This document shows, one piece after another, positions 7,115 through 24,088 of a DNA stretch of 36,885 bases (within the stretch, counting starts at the first letter, position 1; each line of letters opens with the position of its first letter). Location of the stretch: NCBI GenBank assembly GCA_031276785.1, contig JAISMK010000100.1, positions 1 to 36,885 of the forward strand, given 5' to 3'. The notes under the pieces are model-generated. The model made no database searches and was not told the DNA's origin. It saw only the letters and a program-made list of their open reading frames with translations. The stretch is from Desulfovibrio sp. Lineage in GTDB: Bacteria > Desulfobacterota > Desulfovibrionia > Desulfovibrionales > Desulfovibrionaceae. Position numbers and translations under genes: made by a program.

Positions 7115-7207
7115 GAGATTGTTTAAAAAATAACGCATATCCGCCAACATTTCAAGGCGGAGGTTTTCATCCGGCGTATGGACGCGCTTCAGGTTCGCCC
7201 CGCTTGC
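7115..7207 (-). pseudogene. Possible C-terminal fragment of an M20-type peptidase
   Basis: Read on the minus strand, this stretch encodes GANLKRVHTPDENLRLEM followed by LADMRYFLNNL. The VHTPDENL part resembles the conserved H(S/T)PDER segment near the C-terminus of M20 dipeptidases of the PepD type. The fragment begins exactly where the 127-bp repeat (7208-7334) ends, and it runs into a smaller repeat half (AACAATTTCACTTTGAGATT, 7101-7120). It may be the leftover of a gene truncated by repeat insertion or deletion. The similarity is short and was judged by eye. Confidence 0.35.
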
Positions 7208-7334
7208 TAGAGTAGTTTAACTTTGAAAAAGTTGAACTACTCCGCAAAGATTTGCTTGCAAATCCTTGCCGTGAAATGCTTGCAGGCGAGCTTTGCTCGC
7301 CATCAAGCAAGCATTTCAAACGTAAAATGCTCTA
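7208..7334. repeat. Family A repeat, 127-bp three-hairpin form (copy 1)
   Basis: On the plus strand this reads TAGAGTAG ... ATGCTCTA. Hairpin 1 has arms GAGTAGTTTAACTTT and AAAGTTGAACTACTC. Hairpin 2 pairs GATTTGC with GCAAATC. Hairpin 3 is a long stem with GAAATGCTTGC / GCAAGCATTTC outside and GGCGAGC TTT GCTCGCC at the tip. The right end supplies the TAG stop of nodT. Two other copies of exactly the same length occur at 18921 and 23962. Confidence 0.9.
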
Positions 7335-8705
7335 AGGCCGGCTCTCCTTTTCCCATCCTCCCCCCAGAGCCTTGATGAGGCCGACGGCAGAGGCCAGGCG
7401 CCGGCCTTCCAGCAGGATTACGTTGCGCTCATTGAGCAGGAGAGTGGCTTGGGCGGAAACCACCTGAAGATAGGTGGTCATGCCCCCTTCATATTGGGAC
7501 AGGGCCAGATTCAGAGCGCGCCGGGCGGCCTCGGCCGCCCGGCGCTCGGCTTTGGCCTGTCCGGCCAGAAGATCCAAGGCGGAGAGGAGGTCCTCCACTT
7601 CCGCGAAGGCCGTCAGGACGGTCTGGCGGTAGGCGGCCACGCTGGCCTCGTAATCGGCCCGGGCGGCCTCGTTGTCGGCCAGGCGTCTGCCGCCCTGGAA
7701 GAGGGACAGGGCCGCGCCGGGACCCAGAGACCAGACGGTGAGGGGAGAAAGCGCCCAGCCCGCCGCTTCGGCGGAGCGGCTGCCGCTTAGGCTGAGGGTG
7801 GGAAACCAGGCGGCGCGGGCGATGCCAATCCGCTGGTTGGCGGCGGCCACCCGGCGTTCGGCTGCGGCTATATCCGGGCGGCGTTCCAGCAGGGCGGCCG
7901 GCAGCACGGCGGGAATGGCGGGAAGAGCGGCGGATAGGCGGCCGTGCGCCAGGGAAAAGGCGGCTGGAACCTGGCCGCAGAGCAGGGCTATACCGTGTTC
8001 CAGAGTCGCGCGGTCCCGCCGGACGGCCAGAAGTTCGGACTCGGCGCCGGCCAGGCGTGCCTCGGCCTGAGCCACGTCCGCCGGAGTGATTATGCCTCCC
8101 CGGTACTGGTTCCGGGTGAGGCGCAGAGCCCTTGCGTAGGCCCGCAGGGTGGATTCATAGAGGGCCTCCTGCTCGTCCAGGGCGCGCAGTTGGAAATAGG
8201 ACTGGGCCAGTTCCGCCTGGGCGGACAGGCGCAAGGTGGCGAAGTCGGCGGCGGCGGCCTGGGCGTCGGCCCTGGCCGCTTCCAGAGCGGGCAGGGAATT
8301 CCAGAAGCTGATTTCCCACTGGGCGCTGATCCCGGCGGATGCTGAGGAGGTGATGGGACCGCCCTCCCGGCCGCTGCGGGTATAGGAGGCCGGAAGGGAA
8401 ACCCCGGGAAAAAAGGCGGCCCTGGCGGCCATAATCCGGGTGCGGGCGCTGCGCAGGTTGGCTGCGGCCTGGGCTATATCCTGGTTGCCGGCCTCCAGGT
8501 AGTCCATCAGGCGGTTGAGGTCCGGGTCGGCAAAGGCTCTCCACCAGGGGCCGCGTTCCCTTTCGTCCGCCGGATCGGCGGTTTTCCAGCCCTCTTTGAA
8601 GGCCGGGGGCAAGGGTTGCCCCAGATCCGGAACGGCATAGTCAGGGCTAAGGTTAACGCAGCCTGCCAGGAACAGACAGAGCCAGAAGAAGAGGGCGCGT
8701 TTCAT
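7332..8705 (-). CDS. NodT-family outer membrane efflux lipoprotein
   Basis: This is the outer membrane channel of a tripartite RND efflux system. The 457 residues start with a signal and lipobox (LFLAGC, Cys16), followed by the family start VNLSPDYAVPDLGQPLPP. Two outer-membrane-efflux repeats follow, with long alpha-helical stretches; LERRPDIAAAERRVAAANQRIG near residue 270 is typical of NodT/OprM proteins. The start ATG overlaps the mdtC stop by four bases (ATGA), so it is the last gene of the mdtB-mdtC operon. Its TAG stop lies in the first three bases of a 127-bp repeat. The NodT assignment is secure; the exact substrate is unknown. Confidence 0.93.
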   Translation of the reverse strand: MKRALFFWLCLFLAGCVNLSPDYAVPDLGQPLPPAFKEGWKTADPADERERGPWWRAFADPDLNRLMDYLEAGNQDIAQAAANLRSARTRIMAARAAFFPGVSLPASYTRSGREGGPITSSASAGISAQWEISFWNSLPALEAARADAQAAAADFATLRLSAQAELAQSYFQLRALDEQEALYESTLRAYARALRLTRNQYRGGIITPADVAQAEARLAGAESELLAVRRDRATLEHGIALLCGQVPAAFSLAHGRLSAALPAIPAVLPAALLERRPDIAAAERRVAAANQRIGIARAAWFPTLSLSGSRSAEAAGWALSPLTVWSLGPGAALSLFQGGRRLADNEAARADYEASVAAYRQTVLTAFAEVEDLLSALDLLAGQAKAERRAAEAARRALNLALSQYEGGMTTYLQVVSAQATLLLNERNVILLEGRRLASAVGLIKALGGGWEKESRP

Positions 8706-11700
8706 GAGGGACTCTCGGGAGCGGGCCTGTGGAGGCGCCGGGATGAGGGACCTTCCGGGCCGGACCGGCCTGCCGGGGCGCCGGCGGCGGCCAGGCGGGC
8801 GGGCAGGGAATCGCGGGAGAAGCGGTCCAGAAAGAGGTAGATCACAGGAGTGGTATACAGGGTCAGGAGCTGGCTGACCAGGAGGCCGCCCACAATGGTG
8901 ATGCCCAGGGGGATTCTCAGTTCCGCGCTGTCCCCTCTGCCCAGGATCAGAGGCATGGCGCCGAGCATGGCGGCCAGGGTGGTCATCATGATGGGTCGGA
9001 AACGGAGCAGGCAGGCCCGGTGGATGGCTTCGGCGGCGGAAAGGCCGTGGGCGCGGCGGGCGGCTATGGCGAAATCAATCATCATGATGGCGTTTTTTTT
9101 GACAATGCCGAACAAAAGAAGAATGCCGATAAAGGCGATTACCGTCAGTTCCGAGCCGAAGGCCATCAGAGCGAGCAGGGCGCCTACTCCGGCCGGAGGC
9201 AGGGTGGAGAGAATGGTCAGGGGATGGATCAGGCTTTCGTAGAGAACGCCCAGGACCACATACAGGGTCAGGACGGCCGCGAGGATCAGCAGGGGCTGGC
9301 CGCTGCCGGCTGAGGCATAGAGACTGCTTGCGCCCTGAAAGCCGCCTTGGATGGAATCGGGCAGGCCGATGGCGAAAAGGGCCTGGCGGATGCCCTGTTC
9401 GGCGTCGGAAAGGGAATGCCCCGGCAGGAGATTGAAGGAAATGGTGGCGGCGGCGAACTGTCCCTGATGGGAAACGGAGAGGGCCGTCAGGGTCGGTTCC
9501 TGATGGGAAAAGGCTGTCAGCGGTATCAGGGAGCCAGCGGCTGCGAGCTGGCTTGAGGAAGAGGCCGCGTTGCCGCTGATGCCCCGGCCTGACCCGGAAG
9601 CCAGCAGATTGGCGCGGGTGTCGGAGCGCAAAGAGGAACCGCCAGAGGGCACATAGAGGGCGTGCAGGTCTTCCGGACCTTGGAGGAAGGATTCTTCAAA
9701 ACTCAGAACAACCCGGTACTGGTCGGCGCCGGTGTGGATGGTGGAGATGAGGGTTTGGCCGAAGGCCAGGCCCAGAGCGTTGTCCACCTGCTTCTGGCTT
9801 ATGCCCAGGCGGGCCAGAAATTCCCTGTTGACCTGTATGGTGGTTTGCAGGCCGCGCGTCTCCTGATCGGAATTGACATCCGCAAGGCCGGCGACGCCGC
9901 GCAGGGCCTCGGCGGCCAGAGGCGCCCAATGCCGGAGCAGCGCCAGATCCTCCGACAACAGAGTGTATTGGTGGGCCGCCCGGGTACGCCTTCCGGTCAT
10001 GCGCAGATCCTGCATGCCTTGGAGAATGAGGGAGGCTCCGGGCACGGCCGTGAGGTCGCGGCGCAGATCGTTGATTACTGATTCCGTGGTTCCGGAGCGT
10101 TCCTTAAGGGGCTTAAGGGTAATGAAGGCCATGCCGAAATTGCGCTGGCCTCCGCCAGTAAAGCCGCCCACGGAGGCGACATCGGGGTGGGCGCCGACAA
10201 TGCGCATGAATGTTTCCAGCTTGGGGCGTAGAGCCTGGAAGGAAATGCTCTGATCCGCATGGATGAGGCCGAGGATCTGCCCAGTGTCCTGAGTGGGGAA
10301 AGATCCTTTGGGCACAACCAGGTAGAGGACGATGTTCAGTCCCGTGGTCAGCAGAAAGGCGGCCAGGGTCAGGCGCCGGTGCCGGAGAACCACGGCCAGG
10401 CTGCGGGCGTAGGCCTCCTGCAGGGAGGAAGGGAACCTTTTCCAGAAGAGGATCAGCAGCTGTCCGATCCGGACCGCCCGGTTTCTTTGCGAAAGGGGCG
10501 AAGGGGCCGGGGGGGCCGCGTCTCTGCGGCGCAGCAGCCGGGCGCACATCATGGGCGTGGTTGTGAGTGAAACCAGCAGGGAGGCCAGGACAGCGGCCGT
10601 CAGGGTGACGGCGAATTCCCGGAACAATCTGCCGGGAGCTCCCCCCATGCCCAGAATGGGTATGAATACCGCCACCAGGGAAAGACTGATGGACAGCACG
10701 GTGAAGGCCACCTCCCGGCTGCCCCGTAAGGCGGCCCGGCGGGGAGGCAGGCCCGCTTCCACATGGCGGACTATGTTTTCCGTAACCACTATGGCGTCGT
10801 CAACCACAAAGCCCGCCGCTATGGTCAGGGCCATGAGGGACAGGTGGTTCAGGCTGAAGCCGGCCAGATACATGACTCCGAAGGCTCCCATCAGAGAAAC
10901 CGGCACGGCCACGGCCGGGATGACCGTAGCCCTCCCGTTGCCCAGAAAGAGGAAAACCACCAAGATAACCAGGCACATGGCCAGGAACAGGGTTCTTTGC
11001 GCCTCGCGCAGGGAGGCGGCGATGGAGGGCGCCCTGTCCATAATGATTTCGAAATCGGCGCTTTCCGGCATCCAGGCCCGCAGGGCTGGCAGGGACTCTT
11101 TGACCCGCCGGATGGTTTCAATGATATTCGCGCCCGGCTGCTTGTACAGGATCAGCAGCACGGCGGGACGGCCGTTGGCATAGCCCATGTTGCGCGTATC
11201 CTGCACCCCGTCCGTGACTTCGGCCATATCCGAGAGCCGCAGGGCCGCCCCGTTCCGGTAGCGCAGAATCAGAGGAGCGAATTCCGCCGCGGTGCGGAGC
11301 TGGTCATCCGCCTCCACGAACCACTGGGTCCGCCCGTTGTCCAGAATGCCTTTGGGACCGTTGACATTGGCCCCGGCCACCACGGCGCGCACCTCCTCCA
11401 GAGAGACGCCCTGACCGTTCAGGCGTCCGGGGTGCGCGTTCACCCGCACGGCCCGCTGGGAGCCGCCTCCGGCAGACACCTGGCCCACTCCGTAGATCCG
11501 GGAGAGCTTCTGAATGAGGACCGAAGAGGCGATGTCGTACAAGGCGCCCGGCTCCAGGACATCGGAGGCCAGTCCCAGGACCATGATTGGGGCGTCCGCG
11601 GGATTCATTTTCCAATAGGTGGGGTTTGAAGGCAGAACTGGCAGCCTGGCCCGGGCCGCGTTTATGGCCGCCTGCACGTCTCTGGCGGCGCCGTCGATGT

Positions 11701-11998
11701 TTCGATCCAGATCAAAAAGCAGGATAATCCGTGTGCTGCCCTGGCTGCTCTGGGAGGTGATTTCTGTGACTCCCGAGATGCTGCCCAGACTCTGCTCCAG
11801 GGGCGCGGCCACGGTGGCGGCCATGGTTTCCGGGCTGGCGCCGGGGAGAGATGCCTGGACCATGATGGTGGGAAAATCCACCTGGGGCAGCGGGGCCACC
11901 GGCAGGTGGACAAAGGCCGCCAGCCCGGCCAGGGCCAGGGCCAGAGTCAGTAAGGTCGTGCCCGCCGGGCGGCGGATGAAGGGCGTGGACAGAGTCAT
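8702..11998 (-). CDS. mdtC: RND multidrug efflux transporter, MdtC-like
   Basis: This is an inner membrane proton-driven exporter. The 1098 residues are laid out as in MdtC: first membrane helix, then LPVAPLPQVDFPTI, SLPGASPETMAATVA and ANVNGPKGILDNGRTQW. The TM4 proton-relay motif [14 protein letters not shown] is near residue 400, and a second transmembrane half starts near 880. MdtC works as a heteromultimer with MdtB, which is encoded 31 bases upstream. It is longer than the usual 1025 or so residues; part of the excess is a Ser/Gly/Ala-rich insert around residues 780-822 in the periplasmic domain, before GSLIPLTAF. The C-terminus also carries an extra Pro-rich tail. The start is ATG 11998, with AAGG upstream. 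Confidence 0.93.
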   Translation of the reverse strand: MTLSTPFIRRPAGTTLLTLALALAGLAAFVHLPVAPLPQVDFPTIMVQASLPGASPETMAATVAAPLEQSLGSISGVTEITSQSSQGSTRIILLFDLDRNIDGAARDVQAAINAARARLPVLPSNPTYWKMNPADAPIMVLGLASDVLEPGALYDIASSVLIQKLSRIYGVGQVSAGGGSQRAVRVNAHPGRLNGQGVSLEEVRAVVAGANVNGPKGILDNGRTQWFVEADDQLRTAAEFAPLILRYRNGAALRLSDMAEVTDGVQDTRNMGYANGRPAVLLILYKQPGANIIETIRRVKESLPALRAWMPESADFEIIMDRAPSIAASLREAQRTLFLAMCLVILVVFLFLGNGRATVIPAVAVPVSLMGAFGVMYLAGFSLNHLSLMALTIAAGFVVDDAIVVTENIVRHVEAGLPPRRAALRGSREVAFTVLSISLSLVAVFIPILGMGGAPGRLFREFAVTLTAAVLASLLVSLTTTPMMCARLLRRRDAAPPAPSPLSQRNRAVRIGQLLILFWKRFPSSLQEAYARSLAVVLRHRRLTLAAFLLTTGLNIVLYLVVPKGSFPTQDTGQILGLIHADQSISFQALRPKLETFMRIVGAHPDVASVGGFTGGGQRNFGMAFITLKPLKERSGTTESVINDLRRDLTAVPGASLILQGMQDLRMTGRRTRAAHQYTLLSEDLALLRHWAPLAAEALRGVAGLADVNSDQETRGLQTTIQVNREFLARLGISQKQVDNALGLAFGQTLISTIHTGADQYRVVLSFEESFLQGPEDLHALYVPSGGSSLRSDTRANLLASGSGRGISGNAASSSSQLAAAGSLIPLTAFSHQEPTLTALSVSHQGQFAAATISFNLLPGHSLSDAEQGIRQALFAIGLPDSIQGGFQGASSLYASAGSGQPLLILAAVLTLYVVLGVLYESLIHPLTILSTLPPAGVGALLALMAFGSELTVIAFIGILLLFGIVKKNAIMMIDFAIAARRAHGLSAAEAIHRACLLRFRPIMMTTLAAMLGAMPLILGRGDSAELRIPLGITIVGGLLVSQLLTLYTTPVIYLFLDRFSRDSLPARLAAAGAPAGRSGPEGPSSRRLHRPAPESPS

Positions 11999-12029: not shown

Positions 12030-15000
12030 TTATCTTCTCCTCCGGCGGATCAGGCGGTCAAAGGCCAGGTAGATGACAGGGGTGGTGAACAGGGTCAGGG
12101 CCTGGCTTACCAGGAGCCCGCCCACCATGGTCATGCCCAGAGGACGGCGCAGTTCCGCCCCCATGCCCCAGCCCAGCATCATGGGCAGGGCGCCCAGAAT
12201 GGCGGTTACGGTAGTCATGAGGATGGGCCGCAGGCGCAGGAGGCAGGCCTGGCGGATGGCCTCGCGCGCGCTTTTGCCTTCCCGGCGTTGCGCCTCCAAG
12301 GCGAAGTCGATCATCATAATGGCGTTTTTTTTGACAATGCCTATGAGCAGAATTATGCCGATGACGCCGACAATATCGAGATCCATGCCGCAGGCCATGA
12401 GAGCCAGGAGGGCGCCGGCTCCGGCCGAGGGCAGGGTGGAGAGGATGGTGATGGGGTGGATGTAGTGTTCATAGAGGACCCCCAGAACTACATACATGGT
12501 GAGGACGGCGGCCAGAATAAGCCAGAGGGTGCCGGCCAGGGAGGTCTGGAAGGCGCGGGCCGCGCCCTGGGGGGTCAGTTGCAGGGAAATGGGCATGCCG
12601 AGGGCGCGGATGGTTTGCTCCACTTCTTCCACGCCCCGGATGGCCTGCCCCAGGCTGTGGCCGGGGGCCGGGTTGAAGGAAAGGGTGGCGCAGGGGAACT
12701 GCCCCTGGCGATTGATGACCAGGGGAACCGCGCGTTCTTCCAGGCTGGCCACGGCGGAGAAAGGCACCAGCGATCCGTTGCTTCCGGCCACATGGATATG
12801 CTGGATGTCTTCCGGGCTTTCCCGGAATTCCGGCTTAACCTCCAGAATAACCCTGTACTGGCTGGTTTGGGTGAAGATGGTGGAGATCATGCGCTGGCCG
12901 AAGGCGCTGTACAGGGCGCTGTCCAGGGCGGCGACGGATACTCCGAGGCTGGCGGCCCGGTCGCGGTCCAGAATCAGGCGGGCGGAACGGCCACCGGCCC
13001 GCAGATCGCAGGACACGTCGGCCAGAGCGGGATGTTGCTCCAGGCGCTCCAGCAGCCGGGGAACCCAGATTTCCAGGGATTGCTGGTCCGGGGCCTCCAG
13101 GGCGAACTGGTAGCGGGATGGGGAGAGGCGATCCTCAAGGGTCAAATCCTGCGCGGGCTGAAGGTGGAGGGTGATGCCCTGCAGGGAGGCCTGGTTCGCC
13201 TTAAGGCGCCGGATAATCTCAGGGGCGCGGTCCGGGCGTTCATCCAGAGGTTTGAGGTTGACGGCAAGGCGTCCACTGTTCAGGGCGGGGTTGATCCCGT
13301 CCACGCCGATGCAGGAGGAAAGGCTCTCCACCGCGGGATCTTCCAGAATCCGCCGGGCCGCCTCCCGCTGGCGCCTGGCCATTTCGGCGAAGCCGATGGA
13401 GGGCTCGGCCTCGGTTATGCCCGTCAGCAGGCCGGTATCCTGGGCGGGGAACAGTCCCTTGGGGATTAAAAGGTAGAGGAGTACCGTCAGGATCAGGACC
13501 AGGGCGGCCACAGCTAGGGTGGCTCCCTGGCGGTTCAGAACCGCGCCCAGCAGGCGGTCGTAGCCGGCAAGGACGCGCCGCCAGACCGGGGAGCCGCCAG
13601 CGGCCCCGGCCGCGGGGCGGAGGAGAAAGGCGCACATCATAGGCGTAAGGGTCAGGGAAACGACGGCTGAAAGGAGAATGGCGGCGGCCAGAGTAAGGGC
13701 GAATTCCCGGAACAGCCGGCCGGTCACATCGCCCATGAAGAGCAGAGGGATGAGAACGGCCACCAGGGAAACGGTCAGGGACAGGATGGTGAAGGCGATC
13801 TGCGCGGACCCGTCCAGAGCCGCGGCCAGTGGGCTTTTGCCCATCTCCATGTGGCGGTTGATGTTTTCCGTGACCACAATGGCATCGTCCACCACAAAAC
13901 CAGAAGCGATGGTCAGGGCCATAAGGGTGAGGTTGTTCACGGAATGGCCCAGAAAATACATGGCGGCAAAGGCGCCCACCAGAGACAGGGGCACGGCCAC
14001 GCCGGGAATAAGCGTGGCCGGTATGGAACGGAGGAAGAGGAACATCACAGCCACCACCAGGGCCACGGCCAGGCAGAGTTCCAGGCGCACGTCCGCCACC
14101 GTGGCCCTGGTGGTCAGGGTGCGGTCGGTGAGAATGCGGACTTCCACATTGTCCGGCAGGGTCTGGTTCATCCGGGGGAGCAGGGCCTTTATCTCGTCGG
14201 CCACGCGGATGACGTTGGCCCCAGGCTGGCGCTGTATGTTAAGGATAACGGCCGGCTCGTCGCCGCTCCAGGCGGCCAGGCGCTCGTCTTCCGGCCCTTC
14301 CGTCACATCCGCCACGGAGCCGAGGAATACGGGGGCATCGTTGGCATAGCCTATGATCAGGCGGCGGTATTCCTCGGGGCTGCGGAGCTGATCGTTGACG
14401 TCAATGCTGGAGGATCGCTCCGGACCGTCAAAGCTGCCTTTGGCGATGTTGACATTGGCGTTGGACACCGCCGCCCGGATGTCATCCAGAGACAAGCCGC
14501 GGGAGGCCAGGAGGCGGGGGTTGGCCTGGATGCGCATGGCCGGGCGCTGCCCTCCGGACAGGCTGACCAGTCCCACGCCGCTGATCTGGGAGATTTTCCT
14601 GGCCAGGCGGGTATCCACAAGGTCTTGCAGTCGGGGCAGGGGCATGCCCCCGGCTGTGACCGCCAGGGTCATGATGGGCGGATCGGCCGGGTTGACTTTG
14701 CGGTACAGGGGAGGATCGGGAAGATCGGAAGGCAGATAGCCGGATGCGGAATTGATGGCCGCCTGGACCTGCTGTTCCGCCACATCCAGATCCAGCTCCA
14801 GAGTGAATTGCAGCGTGATGACCGATGAGCCGCCGGAACTCTGCGAGATCATGGTGTTTAAGCCGGGCATCTGGCCGAACTGGCGCTCCAGGGGGGCGGT
14901 GATGCCCGTGGCGATAACCTCCGGCCCGGCGCCGGGATACAGCGTGAGTACCTGTATGGTGGGGTAGTCTATTTCCGGCAGGGCGGAAACGGGCATGCGC

Positions 15001-15092
15001 CCGTAAGCCAGCGCCCCGGCTAGAAAGAGGGCCGCCAGGAGCAGGGAGGTTGCCACCGGGCGCAGGATGAACAGCCGGGAAGGATTTGCCAT
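12030..15092 (-). CDS. mdtB: RND multidrug efflux transporter, MdtB-like
   Basis: This is the partner of the MdtC-like pump. The 1020-residue protein follows E. coli MdtB closely by eye: [16 protein letters not shown] at the start, [52 protein letters not shown], and the DD motif [17 protein letters not shown] in TM4. Both periplasmic porter halves and twelve membrane segments are expected from the length and pattern. The start ATG at 15092 has no Shine-Dalgarno, which would fit translational coupling to an upstream adaptor gene. However, no mdtA adaptor is present; only about 110 bases and half a repeat separate it from tolC. Confidence 0.94.
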
Positions 15093-15200
15093 GCTGGACC
15101 GGGCAGGGGCGAAGGGTTGCCGGAACGCTCAGGGGCTTTCCCGTTCTGTATCAGGGATTGCCTCCTCCGGCAACGCCCGTGGGCAAGGCTCCTCCTTAGG
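15093..15200 (-). other. Short gap before mdtB; possible leftover of an adaptor gene tail
   Basis: No complete gene is present. One minus-strand frame stays open from the tolC stop through the repeat and reads LPPKEEPCPRALPEEAI then PDTERESP to a TGA at 15131-15129. This Pro/Glu-rich text resembles the disordered tail often found at the end of RND adaptor proteins, but it is too short to assign. The tail would end 36 bases before the mdtB start codon. Confidence 0.25.
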
Positions 15201-15263
15201 CGGCAAGGATTTGCGAGCAAATCCTTGCAGAGCGGTCCAACTTTTCAAAGTTAAACCGCTCTA
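15201..15263. repeat. Family A repeat, 63-bp half copy (hairpins 1 and 2 only)
   Basis: On the minus strand this reads TAGAGCGGTTTAACTTTG onward. It contains hairpin 1 (GAGCGGTTTAACTTT / AAAGTTGGACCGCTC) and the perfect 12-bp hairpin 2 (GCAAGGATTTGC / GCAAATCCTTGC), then stops where hairpin 3 would begin. The TAG is the stop codon of tolC. Its orientation relative to the gene is opposite to that of the full copies. Confidence 0.85.
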
Positions 15264-16625
15264 GAAAAATCCGCTCTCCGCTCCGGTCTCAATGGACAAG
15301 CCCTCGCGCGCAATGCCGAAGCTGGGCAGGAAATCCCCTCCCAGGGCCAGGAGCCGGTATTGGGCGGCAAGGACGTTCTGCTGGGCCGTGACGTACTGGA
15401 TGGATGAACTGAACACCTCGTTTTCCGCGTCCAGAACATCCAGCAGGGAGCGCTGGCCCACGTTGAACTGCTCCAAGTACATGTCGCGCGTCTGGGTGGC
15501 GTACTGCACGGAGTTGCCGTAGAACTTGGCCTGTTCCCTGGCGGAGATCAGCTCGCTCCAGGTGGCGGCGGTTTCCTGGGCGACCGTGTCGTACAGGGCC
15601 GCCAGTTCCTGGCGGGTCTGGCGGTAACGGGCCTTGTCGCCCTTGACGTTGAAGTAGTCATAACCGCCGTTGAACAGATTCCACTGGGCGCGCAGCATGA
15701 AGGCCATGCTGCCGGTGTCCGTAAGGGAGCTGCCGCTGCGGTAGCTGTAGGAAGGCCCTAACTCGAAGGTCAGTTGCGGGTAAAAGGGGGATTTGTCCAG
15801 CTCCGACTGGAAGCGGGCGGTTTCAGCGTCGGAGGTCAGGGCTTTGAGTTTGAAGTTGCCGGACTGGCTCTCGGCCAGGGCGACTTCCAGGCTGGGATAG
15901 GCATCCTTGGGGGCGAAGGGAGGCTCCAGATTGCCCGCGTCCTTGCCGGTCAGGCGCTTGTAGTTCGTCAGGGCCACTTCCAGAGCGGAGCGGCTCTCCG
16001 CCAGGGAGGCTTCCGTGCGGGCCAGACGGCTCCGCGTCTGGGTGACGTCGGCCATTGTGGCTGCGCCGCTACGCTGGCGCTCCACCTGAGAGGAGAGGAT
16101 GGTGCGGTGGTTTTTGACGTTGAGTTCCGCCAGAGCGCAGATGCGGCGCTGGCGGTAGACCTCAATGTGGGCCAGGAGCGCGTCCAGGCCCAGAGCCTCG
16201 GCATTGTCGAACAGGCGATTGACGGCGGAATCCAACTGCGATTCCCCAATGCTGACCCTGTTCCAGGTGGCGAAGCCGTCCCAGATTGTCTGGGAAACGA
16301 CCAGGCTGGCCTCGCTGGTGCTGCGGAATTCGCGGCGGCCCTGTCTGGCGCCTGGAGCTCGGGTAATGGTGTCGCTTACCTGGTCGAAACCGAACCCGGC
16401 GCGCACATCCATCCGGGGGAACCAGCCGCTGCGGGCCCGGCTGAGATCATGGGCGGCTGCCTGTCTATTTTCCTGAAAGACCTTTACATTGGGGTTATAG
16501 GCGATAGCCTCTTCCACCGTCTCTTTAAGCGTGGTGCCGTCCGCCGCCGCCGCCCCGGCGCAGGTCAGGGCCAAAAGCGGCAGAGCCAGACAGACCGCGC
16601 ATTTTTTCCACATGCTGAGGATCAC
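15261..16625 (-). CDS. TolC-family outer membrane channel, type I secretion style
   Basis: This is an outer membrane trimeric channel protein for export. I chose the GTG at 16625 because AAGGAAGG lies six bases upstream; ATG 16613 is the alternative. A cleavable signal peptide (CAVCLALPLLALTCAGAAAA) precedes the mature sequence TLKETVEEAIAYNPNVKV, which is typical of TolC proteins of type I secretion systems. Two efflux repeats and long coiled helices fill the rest, with FNVGQRSLLDVLDAENEVF near residue 385 as the family hallmark. No ABC transporter or HlyD-type partner is in the window. It lies directly upstream of mdtB on the same strand, so it could also serve that pump, but the sequence style favours type I secretion. 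Confidence 0.9.
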   Translation of the reverse strand: MILSMWKKCAVCLALPLLALTCAGAAAADGTTLKETVEEAIAYNPNVKVFQENRQAAAHDLSRARSGWFPRMDVRAGFGFDQVSDTITRAPGARQGRREFRSTSEASLVVSQTIWDGFATWNRVSIGESQLDSAVNRLFDNAEALGLDALLAHIEVYRQRRICALAELNVKNHRTILSSQVERQRSGAATMADVTQTRSRLARTEASLAESRSALEVALTNYKRLTGKDAGNLEPPFAPKDAYPSLEVALAESQSGNFKLKALTSDAETARFQSELDKSPFYPQLTFELGPSYSYRSGSSLTDTGSMAFMLRAQWNLFNGGYDYFNVKGDKARYRQTRQELAALYDTVAQETAATWSELISAREQAKFYGNSVQYATQTRDMYLEQFNVGQRSLLDVLDAENEVFSSSIQYVTAQQNVLAAQYRLLALGGDFLPSFGIAREGLSIETGAESGFF

Positions 16626-17277
16626 TGACAACCTTCCTTGGCTGGAGTTACGCCGCGCCGGCAACGAATTTACTTCTTCCGTTCCCGGAGCGGGCCTGTC
16701 GGTGGAGAAACCCGGACCTTCGCCGCCATCCGCAACGCCGTGGCTTGCCCCGCCTTTTCCCGCGGGGGGACTCCTCCGGAGGGAAAAGACATAAAACAGC
16801 GCAAGAATCCTGTGCGCCGGGCATCATAACAACACGCAGTAAGGGCGGCTTATCCATTTACTCATTTGCCGCCGTCTTCGTGCGATTATGGAATGAACTA
16901 ATATCTGTTTTTTTAGGAATGTCCAGATATATTTTGCAATTTTTTCTTTTTTCCACAACCAACCCCCAAAGCTGGAAAAAACAAGGACGGTGCGGGGACA
17001 TTCCAGGCCGGTACGCTGAATTTTTTATATTAAAAAACAAATAGTTATGATATATGTACGCATCTTCTGCTCCGGGAGGGGGAAAAAATCTCTCCCTTCT
17101 GTACCAAAGACGATGTTTTTTTTCTTAACAGGCTTTATCCTCTCAGGCAAAGGCGTATATCCGCACAATACAGAGAGGTCGTCTTTTGTTGTTATGCGCC
17201 GTGCGCTTGCGGCAGACAGGGAGGGCAGGGCGCGAAGCGCCTAAGGGAGCGTTTCAAAATCAAAATACTCTGGAAAG
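16626..17277. other. Long AT-richer intergenic region upstream of tolC
   Basis: About 650 bases without a convincing gene. The 16860-17170 part is clearly richer in A and T than its surroundings, with several T and A runs. It probably holds the tolC promoter, though no clean -35/-10 pair could be picked. GGCGC TTC GCGCC near 17230 is a small hairpin. At 17246-17276 there is a partial family A/C repeat end (GGAGCGTTTCAAAATCAAAA), close to one at 22477-22498. Confidence 0.5.
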
Positions 17278-18920: not shown

Positions 18921-19047
18921 TAGAGCAGTTCAACTTTGAAAAAGTTGGACTGCTCCGCAAGGATTTGCTTGCAAATCCTTGCCGCGAAATGCTTGCATGC
19001 GGGCTTTGCCCGCCGTTAAGCAAGCATTTCAAGCGTAAAATACTCTA
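18921..19047. repeat. Family A repeat, 127-bp three-hairpin form (copy 2)
   Basis: This has the same length and layout as the copy at 7208. Hairpin 1 is GAGCAGTTCAACTTT / AAAGTTGGACTGCTC, hairpin 2 is a perfect 12-bp stem, and hairpin 3 has the tip GCGGGC TTT GCCCGC. Compared with copy 1, the T-A pair in stem 1 is C-G and the A-T pair in the tip is G-C, so paired bases change together. The right end supplies the TAG stop of the acetyltransferase gene. Confidence 0.9.
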
Positions 19048-23961: not shown

Positions 23962-24088
23962 TAGAACAGTTTAACTTTGAAAAAGTTGGGCTGCTCTGCA
24001 AGGATTTGCTTGCAAATCCTTGCCGCGAGATGGTTGCAGGCGAGCTTTGCTAGCCGTTAAGCAACCATCTCAAAGCGAAATTGCTCTA
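23962..24088. repeat. Family A repeat, 127-bp three-hairpin form (copy 3)
   Basis: Same length as copies 1 and 2. Hairpin 2 is the perfect 12-bp stem. Hairpin 3 has arms GAGATGGTTGC / GCAACCATCTC where copies 1 and 2 have GAAATGCTTGC / GCAAGCATTTC; two positions changed on both sides and pairing is kept. Hairpin 1 here starts GAACAG and contains one mismatch. The right end supplies the TAG stop of the glycosyltransferase. Confidence 0.9.

Follow-up and report, generated by a model that had tools for sequence, protein, structure and literature searches.

The adaptor gene of an MdtABC/MuxABC-type pump lies apart from its pump operon in a Desulfovibrio species and in relatives of its genus

The window analysed here, which is contig C57 in full (36,885 bp) and comes from a draft metagenome-assembled Desulfovibrio genome (G000; 2.02 Mb in 183 contigs, 86.9% complete), very probably holds the pump part, together with nodT, of an MdtABC/MuxABC-type system whose intact adaptor gene, mdtA, is encoded elsewhere in the same genome, parted from the pump block, its product assembling with the pump in trans (probability about 0.87). 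The pump is an MdtABC/MuxABC-type system whose gene order has been broken, one case of the repeated break-up of this operon within a single genus. The arrangement is a genus-wide exception to the rule that adaptor and pump genes adjoin, and not a new kind of system.

Results

Open reading frames and Pfam and NCBIfam profiles confirm the minus-strand order tolC-mdtB-mdtC-nodT (Table 1). The genes mdtB and mdtC stand in tandem about 30 bp apart, and the start of nodT overlaps the stop of mdtC. By their best NCBIfam models the two RND subunits are different, one MdtB-like and one MdtC-like; both score under the curated equivalog cut-offs, the former only slightly, and are therefore related proteins outside the curated equivalogs. 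The MdtC-like protein exceeds the MdtC model by about 70 residues and is matched by NCBIfam models in two stretches, the first of which ends near residue 785, so that an insertion in its C-terminal half is likely.

The initial annotation had described an mdtB-mdtC-nodT operon with no adjoining mdtA, and every line of search agrees with it. No adaptor gene was found between or near tolC, mdtB, mdtC and nodT in reading frames or profiles, and the 168-bp gap at 15093-15260 is too short for one; relaxed tblastn with the genome's own MdtA against positions 14901-15500 gave chance matches only (best E 0.06), and none of the genome's four TIGR01730 matches above the cut-off lies on the window's contig. 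A truncated or frameshifted mdtA in the gap is ruled out by six-frame translation and the relaxed tblastn. The Pro/Glu-rich open frame that had been noted there does exist, but it consists of repeat and mdtB leader and is not a piece of mdtA. It is also true that mdtB has no Shine-Dalgarno of its own directly before its start; since, judged by eye, the majority of mdtB genes in the genus lack a clear one, including those linked to mdtA, we reject the idea that this absence is damage or a scar.

Table 1. Coordinates of the features discussed, in the window unless a contig or locus is given.
Feature	Position	Strand	Remark
Second repeat copy	7207-7271	+	opposite orientation, just past the nodT stop
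nodT-type outer-membrane channel gene	7332-8705	-	TIGR01845, 368 bits (cut-off 210)
mdtC-like RND pump subunit gene	8702-11998	-	best NCBIfam model MdtC, 1326 bits (cut-off 1774)
mdtB-like RND pump subunit gene	12030-15092	-	best NCBIfam model MdtB/MuxB, 1488.6 bits (equivalog cut-off 1584)
mdtB leader	15093-15195	-	partly kept in sister species G007
Dispersed repeat copy, two hairpins (15-bp and 11-bp stems)	15200-15264	-	tolC-mdtB junction, overlaps the tolC stop codon
tolC-type outer-membrane channel gene (OEP)	15261-16664	-	TIGR01844, above cut-off
mdtA	G000:C29:13313-14428		no adjoining pump; NF008589, 420 bits (cut-off 391)
P2/A2 loci	G000:C165 (L017); relatives L251-L264		
G013 sites for missing MdtA and nearby A2	L094:16722-18005; L247:5542-5724		
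Glycosyltransferase gene	L083:11187-11948		
Glycosyltransferase gene	L084:6174-6914		
Glycosyltransferase gene	L082:11229-12380		
Glycosyltransferase gene	L090:7444-8358		
Glycosyltransferase gene	L094:6869-7780		

The suggestion that the adaptor might be encoded elsewhere proved right when the rest of the genome was searched. Four adaptors score above the TIGR01730 cut-off in G000, three of which (on C20, C165 and C30) stand directly before an RND pump of their own. The fourth is an intact MdtA gene on contig C29, between the genes for ribonuclease J (rnj) and isocitrate dehydrogenase (icd), and it is the only adaptor of the genome over the MdtA/MuxA equivalog cut-off (NF008589, NCBIfam); the next best on that model is the adaptor on C165, called A2 here, which scores 239 bits and sits beside its own pump. 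In the adaptor tree, for which every sixth of 74 MdtB-partner adaptors was taken, the C29 protein groups with the MdtB-adjacent adaptors of other bacteria and apart from the A2 paralogues. Both places are internal to their contigs, with 21 kb of contig upstream of mdtB and 20 kb downstream of mdtA, and neither contains a run of N.

That mdtA normally lies just upstream of mdtB, as the initial annotation had stated, is correct. Among the best 80 of at least 594 MdtB loci, 5 have less than 1.3 kb of sequence upstream and were left out, and 74 of the 75 assessable loci have an adaptor upstream within 4 kb on the same strand; the lone exception among these 75 (L137) is a contig of this very genus. 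Within the genus, an adaptor directly precedes mdtB in 4 of 15 species, and in G000 it is on another contig. At the other RND places of the genus an adjacent adaptor is present in 35 cases out of 41, while the remaining 6 match part of the profile only and look cut by the contig, their contig ends not having been checked. This count takes in 85 of 109 rows, leaves out small fragments, the second mdtB piece of G011 and SecD-like rows, and uses adaptor rows above the cut-off.

The comparison set comprises 15 species of the genus, all of them drafts (65-96% complete), so that every join is a statement about an assembly. The genes mdtA and mdtB are linked in G009, G010, G011 and G014, and also in the outgroup genera G019 and G023. 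In the other 11 species (G000-G008, G012 and G013) the adaptor is not adjacent to mdtB; an mdtA orthologue is on another contig in 10 of these 11, and in the nine split species besides G000 it is 51-75% identical to the C29 gene. The comparison with relatives that the initial annotation had proposed therefore finds the split shared and a separate adaptor conserved in other species.

The neighbours of the parted genes fall into a few arrangements. G010 has rnj-mdtA-mdtB-mdtC-nodT, and G011 has rnj-mdtA-mdtB, in which rnj and mdtA are joined across 42 N of scaffold gap and other genes, which we take to be dnaA and dnaN, follow mdtB. The order rnj-mdtA-icd is common to G000 and its sister species G007, which is split like G000 and has neither the repeat nor tolC before mdtB; in G006, rnj-mdtA is followed by a sugar-epimerase-like gene. 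In G001-G005, G008 and G012, mdtA comes after secF, mdtB comes after uvrC, from which a TPR gene sometimes separates it, and the row secD-secF-mdtA continues into hisC in three species. Furthermore, the operon is broken between mdtB and mdtC in G003, G011 and G014, where mdtC is on a contig other than that of mdtB; in G003 and G014 it is internal to that contig and has different neighbours, and in G011 it is at the contig end. Separately from these breaks, a family 2 glycosyltransferase gene (named from its L083 copy) lies between mdtB and mdtC in G001, G002, G009 and G013, and directly after mdtB in G003; G009 has an additional glycosyltransferase/methyltransferase gene.

Trees of MdtA, MdtB, MdtC and PheT are concordant on the relevant well-supported groups. 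The linked and split states take three changes on the MdtB and MdtC trees and two on the PheT and P2 trees, and a single clade of all ten split rows, a group that was named only after the tree had been seen, is rejected by the MdtB data (AU p 1.4e-5). Taken together, the tree changes and the rejection of one clade argue that mdtA and mdtB have parted at least two times, the gene trees putting the number at two to three. In every split species where it was found, mdtA is uninterrupted. For six pairs of split species, the only pairs computed, dN/dS was 0.10-0.23 for mdtA, 0.06-0.23 for mdtB, 0.11-0.23 for mdtC and 0.10-0.25 for pheT; where measured, mdtA is thus under purifying selection like the pump genes. 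The uninterrupted frame and the low dN/dS argue for a working protein, and that this protein works with MdtB and MdtC we infer from its orthology.

A second MdtB-class pump, P2, with its MdtA-like adaptor A2, is linked in four species of the genus and separated in seven, with A2 not found in three and both absent from one; G000 and G007 have A2 immediately next to its pump. In G013, a genome that is 95% complete, no MdtA orthologue was found. Its secF is complete, and the 183 bp between secF and the contig end are other, repeat-like DNA in which no mdtA begins, while in G001-G003 mdtA starts about 20-30 bp after secF; on this ground we reject the possibility that the G013 gene was lost to the contig end only. 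In this species A2 and mdtB share a contig and are about 6 kb apart. The missing MdtA and the other DNA after secF suggest that one species at least may have an MdtBC that does without MdtA, and, judging by sequence, A2 could serve as an adaptor for MdtBC in G000 also.

The junction of tolC and mdtB is private to G000. The mdtB leader is 88% identical to that of G007 over 43 nt at and before the start and less alike further up; the alikeness reaches to about 15195, beyond which lie the repeat and tolC in G000 and neither in G007, where metal-type ABC transporter genes are found further up. Promoter and terminator scans of the gap gave no sigma-70 promoter match and no intrinsic terminator match, so that tolC-mdtB-mdtC-nodT may be read as a single transcription unit. 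We reject tolC as an old partner of mdtBC, since every tolC found in the relatives is on a contig other than that of mdtB; in G007, G005, G006 and G004 the gene is divergent from an adjoining type I secretion ATPase gene. Genes for a LapG-type protease, an HlyD-type adaptor and a type I secretion ATPase are present at L020 (G000:C119) and L269 (G007:C79); in G007 tolC stands beside them, divergent, and in G000 tolC has other neighbours, contig C119 ending there.

The half repeat described in the initial annotation is real and sits exactly at the tolC-mdtB joint. Its 65 bases are a short copy of a dispersed family, 86-91% identical to copies at 7207-7271, 18921-18985 and 23962-24026; these three extend into a further stretch, GAAATGCTTGC or near it, which the copy at the joint lacks. 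The copies at the joint and just past nodT bracket the mdtBC-nodT block. From 287 first-look candidates in the G000 genome, 40 full-length copies were scored, and the exact palindromic core occurs at 51 sites in 2.02 Mb against none for the reversed control; the fold z of the whole tolC-mdtB gap is -4.8. We liken the family to the REP/BIME-type dispersed palindromic repeats: like them it is short, present in many copies, made of paired hairpins and placed at gene ends, its position being intergenic in the window copies, which are those that were looked at. Unlike them, its modules and lengths vary among copies, and the likeness is one of description, no known family having been matched. Across the genus, the exact core is present in 9 of 15 species at 1 to 51 sites each, namely in G013 and in 8 of the 10 species whose mdtA is on a different contig, and in none of the four linked species; this association of the core with the separation may merely follow the tree.

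Discussion

On the basis of these gene orders we propose the following history. Ancestrally, the genus probably had the order rnj-mdtA-mdtB-mdtC-nodT. In the common ancestor of G000 and G007 the pump block would have left rnj-mdtA, and icd now follows mdtA. On the simplest reading, mdtA stayed with rnj in the G000 line, whereas in the other clade both mdtA and the pump block moved, although the parting may have gone by steps other than these. Later, and in the G000 species alone, tolC would have been placed before mdtB, the joint being marked by a copy of the dispersed repeat. A repeat-linked rearrangement at that junction, after the split, is possible; the repeat may have caused the joint or may merely occupy the site. 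MdtA is most likely made from its housekeeping neighbourhood and would assemble with MdtB and MdtC in trans.

The initial annotation had offered another origin, in which recombination between repeat copies deleted mdtA from 15093-15263, joined tolC to the operon and left a pump that is crippled or borrows an adaptor. A repeat copy does lie exactly at the joint, another brackets the far side of the block, and the gap between is without an adaptor. However, given that an intact orthologue under purifying selection stands on C29 beside rnj, as it does in G010 and G011, that G007 has the same split with no repeat or tolC at mdtB, and that the gap holds no remnant of mdtA, we consider such a deletion highly improbable. 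Indeed, with mdtA kept beside rnj, no repeat deletion is needed to explain the adaptor-less operon. What survives of that proposal is a repeat at a tolC-mdtB junction private to this species; the deletion of mdtA does not.

The assembly itself might be at fault, either through a misjoin of tolC and mdtB at the repeat or through a foreign C29 contig, as the genome is a draft in 183 contigs, the joint sits on a many-copy repeat and the neighbours of tolC differ in relatives. Yet the order rnj-mdtA-icd is found in two species and in G000 contains no repeat copy, members of the repeat family occur on C29 as well, part of the mdtB leader is preserved in G007, and non-adjacency is seen in nine species beyond G000 and G007. 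In addition, a relative's contig name contains k119, a hint that its assembly words were 119 bases in length and so exceeded the 65-base repeat, the window's own assembly not being named. An artefact therefore seems to us quite improbable. We give a small chance to a further explanation, that MdtBC now uses A2 or another adaptor and that mdtA has become a general adaptor or has some other job. A2 is MdtA-like by its NF008589 score, lies near mdtB in the one species that lacks MdtA, and is parted from its own pump in 7 of 15 species; against this, it is directly beside that pump in both G000 and G007, and it is MdtA that tracks the pump genes in tree and in strength of selection. We therefore prefer the reading that the pump block in the window is served in trans by the MdtA encoded on C29.

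The G000 system resembles MdtABC of Escherichia coli and MuxABC of Pseudomonas aeruginosa in that it combines a single MdtA/MuxA-equivalog adaptor with two unlike RND subunits, MdtB-like and MdtC-like, and with a NodT-type channel gene after mdtC, and differs from them in that its mdtA is not beside mdtB. The defining form of such systems is an MdtB2C1 heterotrimer that exports drugs with MdtA and a channel, a form that the G000 proteins may take. Adaptors can be shared: AcrA works both with AcrB, whose gene shares its operon, and with AcrD, to which it is lent. In AcrAD-TolC of Escherichia coli and Salmonella, the RND pump is encoded away from the genes of its adaptor and channel (PMC8277102). 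In contrast to that case, the G000 mdtA has no pump beside it; even so, this precedent for an unlinked adaptor makes the G000 pump a variant and not a new kind. The arrangement departs from a published regularity, since MdtB is described as "always directly adjacent" to its adaptor in a survey of other Proteobacteria, though one that dealt mainly with the alpha-, beta- and gammaproteobacteria and had already noted genomes with pieces missing. In the partly accessible sources that our literature search returned, no report of an unlinked mdtA in Desulfovibrionaceae was found.

It is tempting, if still doubtful, to read the pattern as one in which the MdtA-class adaptors of this genus have been freed from their pumps at least two times independently, into housekeeping rows (rnj-mdtA-icd and secD-secF-mdtA), in a manner specific to the MdtB class; such specificity would rest on the remaining RND pumps of these genomes, which have retained their adaptors where this can be judged. 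If this is true, the freed adaptor would be steadily expressed and usable by several pumps, with A2 substituting where it is missing, as in G013. Annotation and resistance surveys that seek pairs of adaptor and pump genes would score the G000 pump as incomplete. Finally, an operon in which adaptor and pump have come apart two to three times, and in some species mdtB and mdtC as well, with its genes still under selection, offers a natural test of whether adaptor and pump must be co-transcribed.
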